Below, piece after piece: positions 11,738 through 20,230 of a DNA stretch of 64,000 bases. The notes beneath the pieces were generated by a model. It was not told the origin of the DNA. It was given only the letters and a program-made list of their open reading frames with translations, and did not search any database. The stretch is from Asaia bogorensis (GTDB taxonomy: Bacteria > Pseudomonadota > Alphaproteobacteria > Acetobacterales > Acetobacteraceae), in NCBI GenBank assembly GCA_945897825.1, contig CAMDGX010000009.1, forward strand, positions 1 to 64,000. Reading direction: 5' to 3'. The position numbers and the translations under genes are program-made. The number at the start of each line of letters is the position of its first letter. Positions within the stretch are counted from its first letter, which is position 1.

Positions 11738-13114
11738 TCAGTCCGAGAGAACGTGCGCGGGTCCCGCTGGATCCGACACGGCGGGCGCTGCGGCGAACAG
11801 ACTGTCGTACAGTGCCACGTGCTCGGATACAGTCTCGCGCGCCGGGGTGGGGGGGCGCATGGTGGCGCGCATCGCCGCGATGCGTTGCGGGGCCGCGGCG
11901 AGGGTGCGCAGGAGGGCTGCGAGTTCCGGCGCGCTGCCGACCGGGACGTGCCAGCCGTCGGTGCCTGGCGCCACCTTCTCGGCCATGCCGCCGATGTCGG
12001 AGCAGATGATCGGCACCCGGTTGCGCCGCGCTTCCTGGATCACCACCGGCGAGTTCTCCCACCACACCGAGGGCACCAGCACCAGGTCCTGGGCGCGCAT
12101 CAGCGCATCGACTCGGCTGTTGTCGTAGGGGCCGTGGAAGCGGACGTTGCGGCCGGCCTTGGCGAGGCTGGCGAGGAACTCCTCGCGGAACTCCTCGGGC
12201 TGGCCGGTGTGGTCGCCGTGGATGTTGACCACGACGTTGTCCACGCCCTCGTCCTCCAGGATCGCGGCGGCGTCGAACAGCACCTGGATGCCCTTGAGGA
12301 AGGAGATCTGGCCGAAGAATCCGGCGCGCAGCACGCCGTCCTCGCGCGCGGCCGGGGGCGGGGCGTCGGTGGCGTCGGCGATCACGTTCTCCAGCACATG
12401 CATCCTGGCCGCCGGAATGCCCCACTCAACGTAGCGGCCGGCCAGGAAGCGGCTGGGGGCGATGAAGAGGTCGACCTCCTCGAGGAAGCGGCGGACGTAT
12501 TGCGTGCGCAGGAAGAAATCGGCGCGGCTGAACTCGGGGAAGCAGCGCATGCAGTCCCGCGGGGTGGCCTGGTGGCACAGGGTGCGGGAGTGGCGGGTGA
12601 CCATCTGGCCATAGTGGTGGCAGATCGCCTGGAACTCGTGCAGCGTGACGACGATGCGGGCGTTCGGCAGCGTGCGTCGTGCAATCAGAAGGGCTTCGGC
12701 GCCAAAATTGCTGTAGTGATGGAAGTGGAGCACATCCGGCCGGGTGCGGCGCAGCAGGGCGGCGAAATCGCGCGGGAAGCGTTCGTCGTGGTTGGCGAAC
12801 TTGAACCAGTCGTAGCCGGCCATGGTGTAGAGGAAGTCGTCGGCGCCGAACGGCTGGGTGATGGCGCTGCCGGCCCGCCCGCCGCCCGGCTCGCGGCCGC
12901 AGCCGAGGAACAGGGCGGTGCGGTCGGTGTGGGCGCGCAGCCCTTCGAACAGCCGCAGGGCGGCCAACTCGGCGCCGCCGCGGGTGAGCGCGGGGTGGCT
13001 GTGGGTCAACACCAGCACCCGGGCGGCGCTGGACGGCGGAGGCGCGGCGCGACCGCCGGTGATGCCGGCTTCCAGGGGGAACGGCGCGGCGTGGTTCGGG
13101 GAGTCGGGGCTCAT
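11738..13114 (-). CDS. Glycosyltransferase family 4
   Basis: A 458-residue GT-B enzyme. The N-terminal domain opens with VLVLTHSHPALTRGGAELAALRLFE, the acceptor-side glycine loop of GT4 enzymes, and continues to VTLHEFQAICHHYGQM. The C-terminal domain has FFGQISFLKGIQVLFDAA and the EX7E-type motif ENSPVVIQEARRNRVPIICS. It likely elongates a cell-surface glycan on the cytoplasmic side. Cysteines in CHQATPRDCMRCFPEF are notable and recur in GT4 proteins that act on capsule-like glycans. Its ATG overlaps the stop of the upstream 927-residue glycosyltransferase by four bases (ATGA), showing translational coupling. It is last in the minus-strand run. Confidence 0.85.
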   Translation of the reverse strand: MSPDSPNHAAPFPLEAGITGGRAAPPPSSAARVLVLTHSHPALTRGGAELAALRLFEGLRAHTDRTALFLGCGREPGGGRAGSAITQPFGADDFLYTMAGYDWFKFANHDERFPRDFAALLRRTRPDVLHFHHYSNFGAEALLIARRTLPNARIVVTLHEFQAICHHYGQMVTRHSRTLCHQATPRDCMRCFPEFSRADFFLRTQYVRRFLEEVDLFIAPSRFLAGRYVEWGIPAARMHVLENVIADATDAPPPAAREDGVLRAGFFGQISFLKGIQVLFDAAAILEDEGVDNVVVNIHGDHTGQPEEFREEFLASLAKAGRNVRFHGPYDNSRVDALMRAQDLVLVPSVWWENSPVVIQEARRNRVPIICSDIGGMAEKVAPGTDGWHVPVGSAPELAALLRTLAAAPQRIAAMRATMRPPTPARETVSEHVALYDSLFAAAPAVSDPAGPAHVLSD

Positions 13115-15894
13115 GCCGGCATCTCGACCAGGTCCTCGTCGTTGGCGACGGGCAGGGCGTCGAGCATGTCGCGCCAGCGCCCGTCGTGCAGCCAGGCGTT
13201 GTAGAGCGTCAGGTTCATGCGCCAGCGGTGCTGCGCGCCCGCCTGGGACTGGCGCTCGAGGTGGAACAACTGCACTTCCATGTCGACCCCGACCTCCAGA
13301 CCGCGGGCGCGCAGGCGCAGGCAGAGGTCGGCATCCTCGAAATCGCCGATCGGGTAGGCGGGATCGAAGCCGCCGAGTTCCTGGGCCAGCCAGCGGGCCA
13401 TGACGATGCAGGCGCCGGTGATGGCATCGGCCCGGCGCAGGCCTTCCTCCTGTCGGGGACGCCAGCCCTTGCCGGGATGCATCGGGTAGTGGAAGTCGCC
13501 GTAGGCCGGGAGGCGCTCGAAGCGCATGCCCTGGTGCTGGACGCAGCCATCCTCGTAGAGCAGCAACGGGCCGACGGCGCCGAGTTCGGGCGTGTCGCGC
13601 AGGCGGGCGGTGAGGCGCTCCATCCAGTCGGGCGTGCCGGGAAACACGTCGGAGTTCATGAAGCAGACGAACGGAGCGCGGGCGAGGGCGAGGCCGACAT
13701 TGTTGGCTGGGGCGAAGCCGAGATTCTGCGCCAGCAGCACGATGCGGAAGGGAATGGCGAAGCGGGCGAAGGCGGAGGCGGCCAGGATCTCCAACTGGCG
13801 GGCGCGGGTCGGGTCGTCCAGCACGTAGATCAGCTCGTAGGGCTGGGCGCGGGCATGGCGGGAGAAGAAGGCGAGCTGGTATTCGATGAAGTCGAGCCGG
13901 CCGAACAGGGTGATGATCACCGACAGGCGCGGCAGGCCGGGTTGCGCCCCGAAGTCGATGCAACGGTATTCGGGCGGGGTGGCGAGCCGGGCGGCATTGA
14001 GGCGCATCACGGCTGGGCCGAGCACGTGGTCGAAGGCCGGGGCGACCTCGCCGTAGCGCAGTTCGGACTTTTCCAGGAGCAGGCGGATCGCCGCCATGCC
14101 ACGCAGCCGGGGAGGCGGCAGCGGGTGATAGCCGATCTCGCCGCGGGTGGTGGTGATGGCGATGTGCGGCACCTCGGCCTCGGCCAGGATGTCGGGCGCG
14201 TAGGCGAGGAAGCCGCTGCGCAGTTCGGTGAGGCCGTGGCTGGCGCCGATGCTCTCCAGCGCGTCCGGCCGGTCCAGGCGGGGCAGGTGGTCGAGCACCA
14301 GCACCTGGCTGCGGTCGCCGCAGTTCAGGCGCAGCTCCGCGACGGTGCCCGGCGGGCTCAGCATCCAGCCGCTGAGTGCCAGGCCGGCGCGGCCGCCGGG
14401 TTCGAGCGGAGGGCAGAGGATGGTTTCGTCCACCTGGAAGAACACTGGGTCGCGCAGGGCGGTGAGCGTGCTGGCGCCGGCGTAGGGGCGGCGGGCGAGC
14501 AGGGTGCGCAGGCGGGCGATCGCGGGGCCATTGTCCGGCAGGTCGGCGATGCTGGCGGTGGCGTGGGTGACGAGGATGGGCTCGGCCAGCGGGGCTGCGG
14601 CGACCTGGGCGGGCAGGCGGACGAATTCGCCCGCCGCTTCAAGCTCCAGTTCCACCAGCCCGCTGAGGCCCGGACCGGGCGGCGGGGCGGGAAGGAAGAC
14701 GACCGCGCCGGCGCCGCCGCCGGGCAGGTCCGGGCGTGGGAAGCGGACCAGGGTCGCCGTTCCCCGGACCTCGCCGCCGACGAAGCGGGCGGTCGCGGCG
14801 AGGGGGATCGTGCCGTGGCCGGGCCCGGCCACTTCGCCACCGGGAAGCCAGCCCAGCACGACCCATCCCCCGGCGGTCGCGGCATGGCCGTGGCTGTCGA
14901 TCTGCCCGCCCGGCACCAGGCGCGGGCCTTCATCGTGCTGGCCGGGCGGCGGCGGCGTGTCGCCCGAGAGCAGCAGGTGGGTGAATGCGTCGCGCGCGGC
15001 GGTCGTGGCGATGGCGATGCGGACGGCGGGGGTGGTGTCGCGGTAACGGCGCAGGTCGACATGGGGCGCGGGAGGGCGCTGTTCGCGGGCGCCAGTGCGC
15101 AGGAAGTGGTCGTAGCCGCTGGTGAACCGGCCGGCGCGTACGCCTTCGGCCGCATCCTCGTTGGCGGCGAGGTAGAAGGCTTCGTCGAAGTGCGGCACCG
15201 GGCTGGCGCCCGCGCTGCGCCCGGCGGTGAGGTAGTCGTGCAGCGCGCAGACCGAGAAGCGGCGACGCAGGCGCTCGGCGGCGGCAGGGTGGTGGGCGAC
15301 ATACCAGTCGGGGTCGAACCAGGCGGTGGTGACGGCGTCGCGCTGTTCGAACCAGATGCGGTCGATGAAGTGGTGCCAGGCGCCGATGGCGGCGATGGCC
15401 TGCGTCGCCCCCGGCTCGTGGGCGAGGCCGGCGCGGTAGAGCGCGTGGTCGAACAGCAGGTGCGGCTGGCGGCCGAGCTTCGCGCCGTGGCGGAGGAAAT
15501 GGCCGTAGAGGTTCACGCAGTCCTCGGCGCCGACATCCACCGGGTCGAGTCCGCCGGGGCCGAGATAGGTCCCGGAATCGAACAGCCAGTGCGGCGAGCG
15601 GCCGCGATAGCCGTCGCGGCAATAGTGTTCGAAGCCGGAGCGCAGGCGGCCCTCGGCGATCGCTGCGGCGATGTCGGGGTGGCGCTGGCGGTACCAGCCT
15701 TCGTCGAACCAGCGGTTCGGCGCGTGGCCGAGTGCTGCGCCGACCTCGTGGTAGTGGCGCTGCACCTCTGCGGGATCGCGCGCGGCCTCCGGGCCGCCGA
15801 GATAGGCGCAGGCGTACCAGACATGGTCGAAGCTGCGCCACAGCGGCGCGCCGTCGCCGGGCGGCTCAAGCCGGAGCGGGGCCTGGTCGGTCAT
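13111..15894 (-). CDS. Large GT2-family glycosyltransferase with N-terminal FD-x3-Y repeats
   Basis: A 927-residue multidomain protein. Residues 20-280 hold six repeats spaced 41-45 residues, each beginning F-D-x3-Y (FD at about 22, 63, 105, 148, 193 and 236). The best units read like WFDEGWYRQRHPDIAAAI, then HY, G and GRSP. The middle region is beta-rich and unassigned. From about residue 650 a GT2 catalytic domain begins (LSVIITLFGRLDFIEYQL), with LIYVLDDP, the DxD-like MNSDVFPGTPDWM, and FDPAYPIGDFEDADLCLR near the end. The repeats probably bind glycan or protein partners; that is inference. The ATG at 15894 is chosen; an in-frame ATG at 15942 would add 16 residues. Confidence 0.8.
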   Translation of the reverse strand: MTDQAPLRLEPPGDGAPLWRSFDHVWYACAYLGGPEAARDPAEVQRHYHEVGAALGHAPNRWFDEGWYRQRHPDIAAAIAEGRLRSGFEHYCRDGYRGRSPHWLFDSGTYLGPGGLDPVDVGAEDCVNLYGHFLRHGAKLGRQPHLLFDHALYRAGLAHEPGATQAIAAIGAWHHFIDRIWFEQRDAVTTAWFDPDWYVAHHPAAAERLRRRFSVCALHDYLTAGRSAGASPVPHFDEAFYLAANEDAAEGVRAGRFTSGYDHFLRTGAREQRPPAPHVDLRRYRDTTPAVRIAIATTAARDAFTHLLLSGDTPPPPGQHDEGPRLVPGGQIDSHGHAATAGGWVVLGWLPGGEVAGPGHGTIPLAATARFVGGEVRGTATLVRFPRPDLPGGGAGAVVFLPAPPPGPGLSGLVELELEAAGEFVRLPAQVAAAPLAEPILVTHATASIADLPDNGPAIARLRTLLARRPYAGASTLTALRDPVFFQVDETILCPPLEPGGRAGLALSGWMLSPPGTVAELRLNCGDRSQVLVLDHLPRLDRPDALESIGASHGLTELRSGFLAYAPDILAEAEVPHIAITTTRGEIGYHPLPPPRLRGMAAIRLLLEKSELRYGEVAPAFDHVLGPAVMRLNAARLATPPEYRCIDFGAQPGLPRLSVIITLFGRLDFIEYQLAFFSRHARAQPYELIYVLDDPTRARQLEILAASAFARFAIPFRIVLLAQNLGFAPANNVGLALARAPFVCFMNSDVFPGTPDWMERLTARLRDTPELGAVGPLLLYEDGCVQHQGMRFERLPAYGDFHYPMHPGKGWRPRQEEGLRRADAITGACIVMARWLAQELGGFDPAYPIGDFEDADLCLRLRARGLEVGVDMEVQLFHLERQSQAGAQHRWRMNLTLYNAWLHDGRWRDMLDALPVANDEDLVEMPA

Positions 15895-16043
15895 GCAGCC
15901 GTCATCGCGGCGGGCTGTCTCATGGTGCGGCGCGGTCCTCATGCTCTCAGGCGGGCGACTGAGGACATAAGTAGGTGAAAAATGCGCTGATGAGAACAAT
16001 CACACGCAAGAAGGCAACGCGCAGGTGCAAGGGGGGCGGCGCG

Positions 16044-17033
16044 TCAGTCCCCGTAGCCGGAAGGGTGGGCCTCGCGCCAGCGCAGGGCCGTCGCGACGAT
16101 GTCGTCCAGTGCCGCGAGGCGGGGCGTCCAGCCGGTGTCGCGCATGATCAGGGCCGGGCTGGCCACCAGCCGCGCCGGGTCGCCGGGGCGGCGGGGGGCG
16201 AAGCGGTGCGGCACCGGCCGGCCGCTGACGCGCTCCACGCTGCGGATCACCTCCAGCACCGAATGGCCGGTGGAGGTGCCGAGATTGTAGGTGACGCTGG
16301 CGTGGTCGAGCCGGGCCAGGGCGGCGAGATGGGCAGTGGCGAGGTCGGTCGCGTGGATGTAGTCGCGGATGCAGGTGCCGTCGGGCGTGTCGTAGTCGGT
16401 GCCGAACACCGACAATTCGCCGCGGCGGCCGAGCATGGCATCGATCGCCAGCGGCACGAGATGGGTTTCCGGACGGTGATCCTCGCCCAGTCGGCCGGCG
16501 GGATCGGCGCCGGCGGCGTTGAAGTAGCGCAGGCAGGCCGAGCGCAGGCCGTGGATCCGGTCCGCCCAGGCGAGCGCGCGCTCCAGCATCCACTTGCTGT
16601 CGCCGTAGGGGGAGCCAGGGTCGATCGTGGTGTCCTCGTCGATCGGCATGCGGTCGGGCGTGCCGAACAGGGCGGCGGTGGAGGAGAGCACGAAGCGCGG
16701 CACCTGGTGGCGCACGCAGGCTTCGAGCAGGCGCAACCCGTTGCCGACATTGGCCGCGAGATAGCCGACCGGGTCGCGCATGGAGTCGCCGACCAGCGAG
16801 AGGGCGGCGAAGTGGAACACCGCGTGCCAGGGGCCCTGGGCGAGCACGGCATCGATGGCGGCGGCATCCTCCAGCCCGCCTTCCACCAGTCGGGCGCCGG
16901 GCAGAACGGCGGCGCGGTGGCCGGTGCGCAAGTTGTCGAACACCACCACCTCGGCCCCCTGGTCCAACAGGGCGGCGACGAGGTGGCTGCCAACGAAGCC
17001 GGCACCGCCGGTGACGAGGAAGCGCTGGGTCAT
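16044..17033 (-). CDS. galE: UDP-glucose 4-epimerase
   Basis: A 329-residue extended SDR interconverting UDP-glucose and UDP-galactose. Motifs are FLVTGGAGFVGSHL (NAD binding), VFDNLRTGHR, VFHFAALSLVGDSMRDP, the Ser/Thr stretch LSSTAALFG, catalytic YGDSKWMLE (YxxxK), LRYFNAAGADP and RDYIHATDLATAH, all classic GalE landmarks. Length matches the family (330-340). The active-site stretch has LFG where most GalE have VYG. The ATG at 17033 places the Rossmann motif at residue 4. It lies 64 bases downstream of a glycosyltransferase on the same strand and would supply UDP-Gal for glycan synthesis. Confidence 0.95.
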   Translation of the reverse strand: MTQRFLVTGGAGFVGSHLVAALLDQGAEVVVFDNLRTGHRAAVLPGARLVEGGLEDAAAIDAVLAQGPWHAVFHFAALSLVGDSMRDPVGYLAANVGNGLRLLEACVRHQVPRFVLSSTAALFGTPDRMPIDEDTTIDPGSPYGDSKWMLERALAWADRIHGLRSACLRYFNAAGADPAGRLGEDHRPETHLVPLAIDAMLGRRGELSVFGTDYDTPDGTCIRDYIHATDLATAHLAALARLDHASVTYNLGTSTGHSVLEVIRSVERVSGRPVPHRFAPRRPGDPARLVASPALIMRDTGWTPRLAALDDIVATALRWREAHPSGYGD

Positions 17034-17097
17034 GGATACAACCTGAAATGTTCCCGTTCGGGTTATCCGCAAACCGGGGCTGCTTCAACCGGAGCGA

Positions 17098-18159
17098 TCA
17101 GGCTGGCGGTTCAATTCCCAGAATGCCGGGTTCCTCGCGGGCGATCCAGCCGCGCAGGCCGCCGGGGTCGAACGGGTTCGGGAAGGCACGGCGCAAATCG
17201 GCGCGGTTGCGCCACAGCAGGCGGGCGGCGCGCGGGATAGGAGTGCCGTCGGCGAAGTGGCCGTAGTGCCAGGGGTGCCCGTCGGCAGCCGGGATCGTGG
17301 TGGCGGCGACCGCGCGGCGGTACCAGGCGATGAGTTCATGGATCTCGAAATTTTCGCCGGCGTAGCGCTCGGTCATCACGTCGCCGGGGCCGCGCTGGCC
17401 AATGGGGCCGATCTTGGTGAAGTGGTAGAAGCGCAGCAGGCGGCCGCCGGCGGTCACTTCGCCGGACGGGGTAATGCGGACCGGGCGGTGGGCGATGTTC
17501 CAGCTGGCGAGATTGCAGCCGGGATCGCGCTCGATATGCACGCCGGGGAACAGGCCGGGCACGAGGTCGCAATATTTCTGGTCGGTGAAGATGCCCTGCT
17601 CCGGCGCGTCGTAGCAGGCGGTGAGCAGGCGTTCCTCCCACCAGGCGGCGAAGGCGCGGCCGGTGGCGTCGTTGCGCACGCCGATGAAGCCGAGGTTGTA
17701 GATGCCGTAGCGCATCGAGCCGCCCTCGTTGTCGCGCACCGCCTCCTCGCCCTGGTCCGGCGCGGTCTGGTGGGGGGTCAGGACGATCGAGGCGGCATCG
17801 AGGCGGTCGGTCAGGGGATCGAGCGGGGCGAAGGCGGCGATGTCGGGGTCCAGGTAGATCACCTTGTCGGCGCCCTGCTCCAGCAGGCGGCGCAGCATGG
17901 AGGCCTTCACCGCGGTGCAGGCCTCGACGACGTCGTGCTTGAAGATCCAGGCGGGGAAGCCGGGGATGCCGAGTTCTGCGGCCTCCACGACGCGGTCGAA
18001 ATCGGCCAGTGCCTCAGCCGGCAGGCCGTCTGGCGGGTGGTCGGTCAGCAGCGCCACCAGCGACCAGTCGGGATGCAGGCGGCGCAGCGAGCGGGCCAGT
18101 ACGCGGGCCTTGGCCAGGTAGGCGTAGGTGAAGCTGGTGAAGCAGGCGATGCGCGCCAT
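17098..18159 (-). CDS. Glycosyltransferase, GT8-like
   Basis: A 353-residue GT-A type protein. MARIACFTSFTYAYLAKARVLARSL followed by a hydrophobic strand and IYLDPDIAAFAPLD (a DxD within LDPDI, about residue 110) is the pattern of GT8 and related enzymes that use UDP-sugars with a divalent metal. NLGFIGVRN, DQKYCDLVPGLFP and CNLASWNIAHRP are also seen in bacterial GT8-like proteins. No membrane segment is apparent. Its ATG starts 4 bases after the stop of the upstream 688-residue protein, so they are cotranscribed. The sugar transferred is unknown; galE next door makes UDP-Gal a candidate donor. Confidence 0.8.
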   Translation of the reverse strand: MARIACFTSFTYAYLAKARVLARSLRRLHPDWSLVALLTDHPPDGLPAEALADFDRVVEAAELGIPGFPAWIFKHDVVEACTAVKASMLRRLLEQGADKVIYLDPDIAAFAPLDPLTDRLDAASIVLTPHQTAPDQGEEAVRDNEGGSMRYGIYNLGFIGVRNDATGRAFAAWWEERLLTACYDAPEQGIFTDQKYCDLVPGLFPGVHIERDPGCNLASWNIAHRPVRITPSGEVTAGGRLLRFYHFTKIGPIGQRGPGDVMTERYAGENFEIHELIAWYRRAVAATTIPAADGHPWHYGHFADGTPIPRAARLLWRNRADLRRAFPNPFDPGGLRGWIAREEPGILGIEPPA

Positions 18160-18163
18160 GGGC

Positions 18164-20230
18164 TCAGCCGGCCAGCGGAACGCGGCGCCAGGCGGTGCCG
18201 GGGGCCAGGGTGATCTCCAGCAGGCGCGCGCCCACCATGCGCAGGCGGCCGCGCCCGTCGGTCCAGCGCAATCCGGGTTCGGGCGGGTGCCAGCCGCCGG
18301 CCAGCCGGGGATCGTCGAGGGGCACCTGCACCCCGTCCAGCGCCAGCGTTGCCACGGGAACGCCATGGGGGGCTGTGCGCGGGCCGGTCGGTAGCGCGTG
18401 GCGGGAGTGCAGGCAGACTTCAACGGTGCCGGTCGGCAGGGCGAAGCGGAGCGCCTCTCCGGGCAGGCGCGGCAGGGTGGTGCCGTCGTGCCGAACGACG
18501 ACCAGGCCGGGATCGTCGATGGCCAGGCGGGGCTGCGGGTCGGTGGCGAGGCGCCCGGGCGCCAGGGTCGCCGTGGTGCCGGCGGGGATCAGGCGGGGGG
18601 CGGTCGGGGCGGCGGCGGCGCGCTGGCGGGCGTAGTCCAGCGCCCAGCCTTCCTCGAAGAAGCACAGCAGCGCCGCCTCGTCGCGCAGCACCACGCCGCG
18701 GCGGTGGCGGCGCACGGCGGCGGCGATGTTGCCGCTGTCGGCCAGCGCGATCACGTCCGCGCCGGCGGCGAAGGCTTCGTGGGCGACGAAGGAGAAGGTC
18801 TCCGGCCAGGGGGACAGCACGGCGACCAGGTCCACCTCGGCCGCGCGCAGGGCGCGCACCATGGCGAAGCGGTCGCCGGGGCGCACCTCGACATCGACCT
18901 TTTCCAGCCCGGTCATCGGCACATTGTTGGCCGCGACCGCGAAGTGCAGGAAGCGATAGGTGGCGTGGCCCGCCTGGCGCTGCAGCAGGCGTTGGAAGGC
19001 GGGCCAGCCCTTGGGCGGAATGGCGAAGCCGGCAAAGCCGACGCGCGGCGGCCCTGGTGGTGGCGTGGCGATGGGCGCGCCCTCGTCCAGCACCGCGTTC
19101 TCGTGGACGCGCGCGGTGCGGAAGGGCAGGGCGGTGCGGGCGAGGAACAGGTCGAGCGCCACTCGGCTGGGCGCCACGACGTGGAACGGCACCGTTGTGA
19201 ACAGCGCGTGCATCGCGGCGAGATAGCTGGCGCGCTCGGCGCCATAGACGCAGATGCGGCAGGCGGTGCTGTCGGGCGGCGGGGCGTGGCAGTAGGCGAT
19301 ATCGTTGCGCAGCAGGTTGAAGCCCTCGCACAGCGCCGAATAATCGTGCAGCCATAACACGCTGTGCGCCGGTGCGAGCACGGTGGCGACGCGCGCCAGG
19401 GCCGTGGAACGATGGCCTAGCACGGAGTGGACGATGAAGATGCGGTGCGACGGCAGGAACGGGGCCTGCAGTGCGGCTTCCACCGTGCTTTCCGGCGCCA
19501 GGCCCAGGAAGCGCCCGTTGAGCGAGACCTGCAGCATCACCTCCTCGTCCTGCGGGGCGAAGGTGAAGCGCGCGATCGCCGGGGCGATGTGGAGGTAGGC
19601 GGTGCGGTCGGCGTTGAACAGCGCCTGCTCGTCGGCGATCAGGATCTGCATGCCGCCGGTAACGTTGACATAGCAATCGTGGCTGGCGGCCAGCACCAGC
19701 CCGGTCATGCCCAGGCAGGCCTCGGCCAGTGCGGCGCGCAGCCCGGGCTCGTCGATCGGGGGGGCGCCTTCGGGTGCGTCCCAGCCGGGCGGGCGTTGGG
19801 AGGGGATGCGCGCCTGCTCGACCACGTGGCGCGGCAGGCCGCCGGGGCGGGCGGGCAGGCGGCCTTCGGCGCGGCCGTAGTATTCGTAGTGGAACAGCGG
19901 GTTCATCCCGGCATCGGCGATGTCGGGGTAGAACTCCAAGTAGAACCGGGTGTCGAACCAGCTGTTGGGGTTCAGGCCGGCCTTCCAGCCTTGTTCGGCG
20001 AAATGGCGCACCGGGTCGTCATCCGGGCCCAACCCGGCCACGGCGCGGTAGAAGGAGGGATCGACCGCCGGGGCGATGGTGTCGAGCACCCAGTCGCCGT
20101 AGATCCGCGTGACCGGGGCCTCTTGCGGCGCGGGGGCTGCCGGGGCGAGGGGGCGCAGCGGAAATCGTGACCAGACGATCCAGTCAGGCTGCGGCGGCCC
20201 GGGTTCGGAGGGAGCGGTGTCGGGGGGCAT
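18164..20230 (-). CDS. Large putative glycosyltransferase with N-terminal FD-x3-Y-type repeat
   Basis: A 688-residue protein. Residues about 56-130 contain two repeat units of the kind found in the 927-residue glycosyltransferase (VDPSFY and WFDTRFYLEFYPDIADAG, then FHYEYYGRAEGRLP). The central part (about 155-560) looks like a GT-B fold: HDCYVNVTGGMQILIADE, LWLHDYSALCEGFN, HVVAPSRVALDLFL, VGFAGFAIPPKGW, and PWPETFSFVAHEAFAAGADVIAL as the GT4 EX7E-like signature. The last 130 residues are beta-rich and unassigned. CHAPPPDSTACRICVYG is a Cys-containing loop like that in other GT4 capsule enzymes. It follows the dcyD-like gene after 39 bases. Confidence 0.75.
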   Translation of the reverse strand: MPPDTAPSEPGPPQPDWIVWSRFPLRPLAPAAPAPQEAPVTRIYGDWVLDTIAPAVDPSFYRAVAGLGPDDDPVRHFAEQGWKAGLNPNSWFDTRFYLEFYPDIADAGMNPLFHYEYYGRAEGRLPARPGGLPRHVVEQARIPSQRPPGWDAPEGAPPIDEPGLRAALAEACLGMTGLVLAASHDCYVNVTGGMQILIADEQALFNADRTAYLHIAPAIARFTFAPQDEEVMLQVSLNGRFLGLAPESTVEAALQAPFLPSHRIFIVHSVLGHRSTALARVATVLAPAHSVLWLHDYSALCEGFNLLRNDIAYCHAPPPDSTACRICVYGAERASYLAAMHALFTTVPFHVVAPSRVALDLFLARTALPFRTARVHENAVLDEGAPIATPPPGPPRVGFAGFAIPPKGWPAFQRLLQRQAGHATYRFLHFAVAANNVPMTGLEKVDVEVRPGDRFAMVRALRAAEVDLVAVLSPWPETFSFVAHEAFAAGADVIALADSGNIAAAVRRHRRGVVLRDEAALLCFFEEGWALDYARQRAAAAPTAPRLIPAGTTATLAPGRLATDPQPRLAIDDPGLVVVRHDGTTLPRLPGEALRFALPTGTVEVCLHSRHALPTGPRTAPHGVPVATLALDGVQVPLDDPRLAGGWHPPEPGLRWTDGRGRLRMVGARLLEITLAPGTAWRRVPLAG

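Follow-up and report, generated by a model that had tools for sequence, protein, structure and literature searches.

The window analysed here is a stretch of 64,000 nucleotides from Asaia bogorensis (positions 1 to 64,000 of contig CAMDGX010000009.1, assembly GCA_945897825.1). Its reverse strand carries an operon in which two large proteins, referred to as A and B, each join an N-terminal array of short repeat units, marked by the motif F-D-x3-Y, to a glycosyltransferase (A) or a glycosyltransferase-like enzyme (B). The two proteins, their repeat units as delimited by an iterated unit profile, and their catalytic regions lie at the following positions of the window.

18164..20230, reverse strand: protein B, 688 residues, with two units, a GT-B/GT4-like enzyme and a C-terminal beta-rich region
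19967..20062, reverse strand: B unit 1
19853..19960, reverse strand: B unit 2
18611..19702, reverse strand: GT-B/GT4-like catalytic region of B (approximate; boundaries from predicted secondary structure)
13111..15894, reverse strand: protein A, 927 residues, with an N-terminal seven-unit array, a middle region and a C-terminal GT2 domain
15718..15831, reverse strand: A unit 1 (FDHVWY...)
15592..15711, reverse strand: A unit 2 (FDEGWYRQRHPD...)
15463..15585, reverse strand: A unit 3
15334..15456, reverse strand: A unit 4
15199..15321, reverse strand: A unit 5
15070..15192, reverse strand: A unit 6
14959..15057, reverse strand: A unit 7, degenerate (VDLRRY...), frame residues 315-347
13534..13923, reverse strand: matched part of the GT2 catalytic domain of A (PF00535, Pfam scan)

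Protein A starts at the ATG at 15894; a further in-frame ATG lies at 15942 and the open frame as a whole has 962 codons. Numbered in that frame, the F-D-x3-Y motifs fall at residues 57, 98, 140, 183, 228 and 271, with spacings of 41, 42, 43, 45 and 43. An initial annotation of this DNA had described six units in A, spaced 41-45 residues, and two in B. The motif positions and spacings are right, and the profile likewise returns two units in B; the count for A has to be raised to seven, the last being the degenerate unit absent from that annotation. The consensus of the iterated profile is LFDEAWYLAAYPDVAAAVAAGGFANAYDHYLRRGAAEGRSP.

Motifs of this kind could arise by chance or composition, as pieces of alanine-rich helices or of the catalytic folds that have no relation to one another, and sequence evidence confined to the window is mixed on the homology of the units of A and B. 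A profile of A's six units scores 15.4 bits against the N-terminus of B (best shuffle 12.7, with 804 of 1000 shuffles scored), and when each unit of A is left out in turn, units 2, 3 and 6 lie above every scored shuffle, while units 4 and 5 are marginal (reached by 4 and 2 shuffles). On the side of chance, unit 1 is not significant (reached by 74 shuffles) and the reverse test, B's two units against A, fails to beat its shuffles (4.0 bits; best shuffle 12.5). Homologues decide the matter. Aligned profile to profile, the families of the A array and the B array score 49.0 with a probability of 93.5%, whereas the highest of 200 column shuffles reached 21.9 (3.7%), and the short and long unit types align with a probability of 99.3% (E 3.4e-20). 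Because the profile-profile score so exceeds the shuffles, we conclude from these alignments that the arrays of A and B are homologous and that, as the initial annotation had proposed, the units align as one profile. We regard the homologue comparisons as refuting an origin by chance. The array moreover recurs, at E 1e-5, in 129 of the 150 Acetobacteraceae and 52 of the 398 Pseudomonadota genomes sampled (the genome searches covered Pseudomonadota), and it is found on small proteins without a catalytic domain. We give the chance explanation almost no credence.

Conservation within the unit is concentrated at a few positions. Counted over 353 distinct units (of 368 found), wherever the position is filled, Y7 is kept in 99%, F2 in 97%, G34 in 95%, H29 in 91%, D3 in 83% and R39 in 75%. 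Order along the array is conserved as well: in ten seven-unit proteins, six close relatives of A being left out, units at the same position in different proteins are 45.8% identical, as against 27.3% between positions and 27.6% within a protein. By this measure the array is an old domain whose units keep their order, rather than the product of recent tandem duplication. The same figures bear on the idea that the array serves passively, as a rigid spacer or an aid to folding, keeping catalytic domains off the membrane or off each other without a specific partner. Such a spacer would fit the wide variation in unit number, from 1 to 18 per protein, and the place of the array between a coiled coil and a catalytic domain in the fused chains described below. 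It would not need a position-specific sequence kept across distant proteins, and small stand-alone proteins of two units exist; we consider it improbable. Very long arrays of 18 (L130), 14 (L070) and 12 (L150) units were seen on glycosyltransferases.

Neither Pfam nor NCBIfam has a model that matches the arrays of A and B significantly; Pfam gives nothing on them at E up to 10, and six stand-alone array proteins have no Pfam or NCBIfam match over their units better than E 0.01. The PHROGs families returned two weak matches inside the array of A (E 0.05 and 0.3), both to families of unknown function. Two known repeats were considered and rejected: DUF4214 (PF13946) is absent at E 0.001 from the whole of the window's genome, A and B included, and the Sel1 repeat (PF08238) aligns with a probability of only 0.5% (hhalign, against nine Sel1 dimers from the window's genome). 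The array resembles the helical hairpin repeats of the Sel1 and TPR kind in unit length and in its predicted helix-turn-helix, and differs from Sel1 in profile; TPR was compared by Pfam scans only. Against solved structures, a profile of nine single units gave 28 weak matches, mainly nanobodies (best E 0.005), and a two-unit profile gave two chains (E 0.23 and 0.38), none of which we take as real. Profiles built on the entire proteins likewise found no relative of known structure, at E 0.01 for B and at E 0.001 for A.

The predicted model of A is unusable (mean predicted local distance difference test score, pLDDT, 36.2). That of B (mean 58.6) places a pair of helices in each of the two units, at low to medium confidence (pLDDT 40-81 in blocks of ten residues), and is poorest in the second half of unit 2. 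The unit, about 35-43 residues long, is probably a helix-turn-helix, stacked with its neighbours into a rod. Literature searches, confined to open PMC papers, returned no paper for the motif strings and, for the concept, no description of the repeat. A possible identification of Acetobacter PolE as the array protein of about 1000 residues was considered and dropped; in Kozakia, deletion of polE shortens a polymerase chain reaction product from 3000 bp to no less than 1950 bp (PMC5553594). Neither the repeat family nor its divided use between genes, considered below, appears to be described in the model libraries and papers that were searched.

The catalytic domain of A is a GT2 enzyme as first annotated (Glycos_transf_2, PF00535, 38.8 bits; gathering cut-off 23.3), and the middle region of the protein has no significant match in a scan of family models. 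The assignment of B is weaker. The GT4 model Glycos_transf_1 (PF00534) scores 14.2 bits, under its gathering cut-off of 26.4. B can be called GT4-like at most, and a fold search with its weak model returned GT-B enzymes. These make up most of the 50 Foldseek matches listed (E from 9e-7), among them GtfC, SenB, BshA, PimA and glycogen synthase, with low query TM scores of about 0.16-0.26; five of the 50 are G-protein-coupled receptor entries, one of which is a PGS fusion by title. The models for WbsX (PF14307), RgpF (PF05045) and WsaF (PF21374, PF22772), frequent catalytic partners of the array elsewhere, match neither A nor B. Protein B and the GT4 enzyme at the downstream end of the operon each carry a cysteine set, C-x(12-14)-C-x(7-9)-C-x2-C, whose four members in B are invariant in an eight-row alignment of B-type proteins; the pattern suggests a metal site within the glycosyltransferase.

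Three further genes complete the operon, in the order B, GT8-like enzyme, epimerase, A, GT4.

17098..18159, reverse strand: GT8-like enzyme, 353 residues, with weak matches to PF03407 and PF01501 only; its ATG lies 4 nt past the stop of B
16044..17072, reverse strand: NAD-dependent sugar epimerase (PF01370); the frame opens with TTG, and an ATG lies at 17033
11738..13114, reverse strand: GT4 glycosyltransferase (family scan); its ATG overlaps the stop codon of A (ATGA)

Of 17 related loci examined, 10 preserve all five genes in this order, six in close relatives (L013, L014, L016-L019) and four in more distant ones (L055, L056, L057, L061), which bears out the expectation that repeat-bearing glycosyltransferases occur together in one operon. 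Among the incomplete loci, three (L015, L020, L021) reach a contig edge, one (L058) shows neither B nor the GT8-like gene, and three (L059, L060, L062) show only the C-terminal part of A and the GT4 gene. Relatives of B occur at ten loci in the named genome collection. Nine are from metagenome genomes labelled Alphaproteobacteria, Asaia, Acetobacteraceae or Rhodospirillales; at the tenth, from Acidisphaera, the match covers only 86 C-terminal residues.

Across two genome samples the array is present on 24 of 28 B-type glycosyltransferase domains. All eight seeds of the B-type profile bear arrays by choice, and in one search all four genomes matched hold seeds; setting the seeds aside leaves the array on 16 of 20. 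The B-type domains without it are those of L213-L216, and L216 has a separate array frame about 350 bases upstream on the same contig. In the relative L018/L198 (CAMBRC010000057.1) the B gene is interrupted by a stop codon, which leaves a 537-residue open frame; it may be decayed or reflect a sequencing error. One metagenome genome named Asaia bogorensis (L014 and L015) holds two different copies of B, 73% and 71% identical to that of the window; this bin may be mixed, and its name looks doubtful.

Six open reading frames (ORFs) in the window's genome carry the array (E 0.01): A, B, a 1304-residue WbsX-GT4-GT2 protein, a 945-residue GT2-WbsX protein, and two small array proteins with frames of 199 and 170 residues, the former directly upstream of the 945-residue gene. 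The assembly has 208 contigs and is 96.7% complete, so that distances are visible only within a contig. The two small proteins are located as follows.

L010:8434-9030 (contig C7): small two-unit protein
L011:1000-1509 (contig C188): small two-unit protein

Reading by eye places the small array gene of C7 near rml (dTDP-rhamnose) genes.

Beyond this genome the carriers of the array are diverse. Pfam scans (E 1e-4) of 53 of them, taken from the best-scoring matches and not drawn at random, found a glycosyltransferase-type domain in 31. Seven have another domain: RTX (two), subtilase, an Ig-like/FG-GAP adhesin, an adenylation-carrier-thioesterase protein, a sulfotransferase (below cut-off) and a nucleotidyltransferase. 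The remaining 15 have no domain, and four of these, recognised on inspection as B-type glycosyltransferases, served as seeds for the B profile. Many Acetobacteraceae genomes encode small proteins, in frames of at most 300 residues, that consist of two units and little else. A short-type two-unit query matched 115 of 72,556 plasmid records, from any host, and none of 50,697 phage records at E 1e-3. The plasmid carriers also include M10 metallopeptidases, as well as a Hint protein that lies beside type I secretion genes, and on a Rhodospirillum rubrum plasmid an array-bearing RTX protein adjoins type I secretion genes and rfbC. The same units thus occur in secreted proteins, as the initial annotation had supposed. 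In 20 annotated stretches, hand-picked from the match listings, nine have an ABC (ATP-binding cassette) permease and ATPase, read as polysaccharide exporters from their neighbours, and four have type I secretion genes. Individual carriers of other architectures were also seen: the array stands on a GT2 C-terminus (L118), an adenylation-carrier-thioesterase protein (L140), a sulfotransferase-like protein (L148) and a nucleotidyltransferase (NTP_transf_5, L151). Two adjacent M10 metallopeptidase genes on a Pseudoroseomonas cervicalis plasmid (L160) have six C-terminal units each, and on Bradyrhizobium pUSDA135-2 an array-bearing WbsX gene stands beside type I secretion genes.

One account of this diversity, that array-bearing glycosyltransferases modify array-bearing secreted proteins, was dropped as a general explanation; all six array ORFs of the window's genome are glycosyltransferases or small array-only proteins. 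A serious rival, and the next in our rating after the docking role proposed below, is that the array is a glycan-binding module, each unit being a weak site for growing or finished polysaccharide. The glycosyltransferases and decorating enzymes would in this way hold the acceptor chain, and secreted proteins would be kept in the cell's own surface polysaccharide. A single function would then cover every kind of carrier, from glycosyltransferases, the sulfotransferase-like protein, the nucleotidyltransferase and methyltransferases to the secreted RTX, M10, subtilase and Ig-like proteins, and the conserved set (F2, D3, W/F6, Y7, H29, Y/F30, R39) is rich in aromatic and charged residues. Residues conserved in every unit may, however, be merely the structural core. 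Nor does glycan binding predict arrays that end one protein and open the adjoining glycosyltransferase, an arrangement set out in the next paragraphs. On balance we judge glycan binding unlikely, if well worth weighing.

The arrangement of array genes relative to one another is informative. Array ORFs cluster in five of eight further genomes, which were chosen for their many matches: 22 of 57 lie less than 10 kb from another array ORF, where 1.94 are expected and 20,000 random placements reached at most 12. Thirteen adjacent array pairs on the same strand were available for comparison, and in seven (L115, L127, L134, L173, L183, L184, L185) the array is divided at the gene boundary, C-terminal end to N-terminal end: the upstream protein ends no more than 11 residues after its last unit, and the first unit of the downstream protein falls within the first 68 residues of its frame. 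A coiled-coil heuristic reports strong coils in 8 of 85 array ORFs and, for comparison, in 11 of 1443 six-frame ORFs without an array, many of these background frames not being genes. In all eight (L115, L119, L122, L173, L178, L182, L184, L185) the array is C-terminal of the coil. In four of the seven divided pairs (L115, L173, L184, L185) the upstream member carries a strong coil and closes with its array, and the adjoining gene encodes a glycosyltransferase that starts with one. In the other three the upstream partner is a small two-unit protein (L127) or scores little or no coil (L134, L183).

Fused counterparts exist. On plasmids of Azospirillum (MTCC4035 p6, L178) and Allorhizobium (L182), a coil, an array, a methyltransferase and a GT2 enzyme stand in one chain, the methyltransferase before the coil and array and the GT2 after; in L178 the methyltransferase is identified by annotation and the GT2 by eye, and in L182 the annotation names a glycosyltransferase, and the methyltransferase and GT2 are read by eye. 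The divided form is seen in a capsule locus of E. coli KE47, where a 910-residue methyltransferase (921-residue open frame) with coil ends in two units, the GT2 gene right after it starts with one unit, and the pair directly follows the export genes. Among 5426 E. coli genomes, 52 contain DNA that matches this gene pair, and in 37 of them the match spans 80% or more of the length of the pair. The KE47 record (NZ_CP141089.1, 4.94 Mb), listed as a plasmid, is a chromosome in the E. coli collection.

Coiled-coil proteins free of the array were noted near array genes too. At four loci on plasmids of Paracoccus, Phaeobacter and Cereibacter (L179, L180, L181, L188), proteins of this kind, annotated as sulfotransferases, adjoin array-bearing glycosyltransferases or lie near them and may be the terminators there. 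On a Methylocystis iwaonis plasmid (L175), the gene of one such protein, an annotated methyltransferase with a coiled coil, precedes a 321-residue frame that has six units and no functional annotation; the module would here seem to occupy a polypeptide of its own.

Arrays divided at gene boundaries, together with counterparts fused in one chain, are what is expected of two parts that work in contact, and the C-end to N-end division therefore favours tethering. We propose that the array is a docking joint that holds the enzymes of surface-polysaccharide assembly on one site, a reading to which we lean while granting it somewhat less than an even chance. The array is portable between enzymes, and genes that bear it often sit together. 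Divided arrays would stack on each other or on a common partner, and chain-terminating or ruler proteins and polymerising glycosyltransferases would thereby work in one complex. By extension through homology, the arrays of A and B may dock these enzymes to each other, to other array-bearing enzymes, or to the two small array proteins listed above.

Several observations weigh against a docking role. Some concern the window's own genome, in which ABC2 permeases occur only on contigs C108, C55 and C37 and on none of C7, C9 and C52, the contigs of the array glycosyltransferases, no Wzt_C match was found, and the six array ORFs found all fall short of a strong coiled coil (best 6 windows, threshold 20). 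Others concern the comparative evidence. Clustering is absent in three of the eight genomes and in part reflects the fact that polysaccharide genes cluster anyway, so that it proves little alone; the coil scan is a home-made heuristic; and six of the thirteen adjacent pairs lack the C-end to N-end pattern. Only four of the seven divided pairs have the strong upstream coil, three enterobacterial pairs look like related capsule loci and not like independent cases, and in L119 and L122 a coil with C-terminal array has no second array ORF in the stretch fetched. The frequency of the array on B-type domains falls, as given above, once the seeds are set aside. The secreted RTX, M10, subtilase and Ig-like carriers would need a second explanation. 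The suggestion in the initial annotation that the arrays tether two glycosyltransferases to one assembly site is accordingly supported in part, chiefly by evidence from outside the window: divided arrays speak for it in 7 of 13 pairs, whereas the window's genome offered no coil partner and its array contigs no exporter.

The closest known parallel is the ABC-transporter-dependent O-antigen system of the WbdD-WbdA type. The text available of PMC11231755 describes WbdD as a terminator that contains a long coiled coil and recruits the polymerase through its C-terminal region. The array loci share with it a coiled coil, a C-terminal module and large modular glycosyltransferases, and rhamnose genes and an ABC exporter lie near many of the array loci viewed. 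By coil heuristic, array profile and annotation, a WbdD-like scaffold arrangement was found in L115, L173, L184 and L185. Two differences stand beside these likenesses: the recruitment site of WbdD is not described as an F-D-x3-Y repeat in that portion of the source, and the window operon has no terminator, coil or exporter. It does not qualify as an ABC-transporter-dependent polysaccharide locus, and no WbdD-like scaffold arrangement was seen among the array proteins of the window's genome.

The group 3 capsule loci of E. coli offer a second parallel. As described in the portions available of PMC13171606, PMC10433991 and PMC13410964, the gene that comes first after the export region encodes a putative methyltransferase with a coiled coil of variable length. 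In KE47 and p2-S1-ZIM-01-A, whose assignment to group 3 is read from gene order and not typed, this methyltransferase ends in an array and the next glycosyltransferase starts with one. The coil of the methyltransferase is thus known in print, and the available part of PMC13171606 does not mention the repeat. These loci differ from the window in being gammaproteobacterial capsule loci with few units. For the K96 capsule, the accessible text of PMC13410964 reports that insertions or mutations in wsaE and wcaA gave cells without capsule; should these genes carry the array, they would tie the module to a phenotype. Helical repeat scaffolds and recruited polymerases are already a known kind of thing.

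To our knowledge, how assembly enzymes cohere and how chain length is set for long surface polysaccharides have been worked out in a few O-antigen systems only. It is possible, and we put it forward more tentatively than the docking role itself, that the array is an undescribed general coupling joint of the surface-polysaccharide machines of Pseudomonadota: a solenoid that can be split across genes and reassembles, plugging together terminators or rulers with polymerases, pairs of glycosyltransferases, and possibly secreted surface proteins. A portable sequence module that marks the members of an assembly would let partners be predicted from sequence, including those of some E. coli capsule types, and the array profile would annotate a region so far unmodelled in proteins of most of the Acetobacteraceae genomes sampled.

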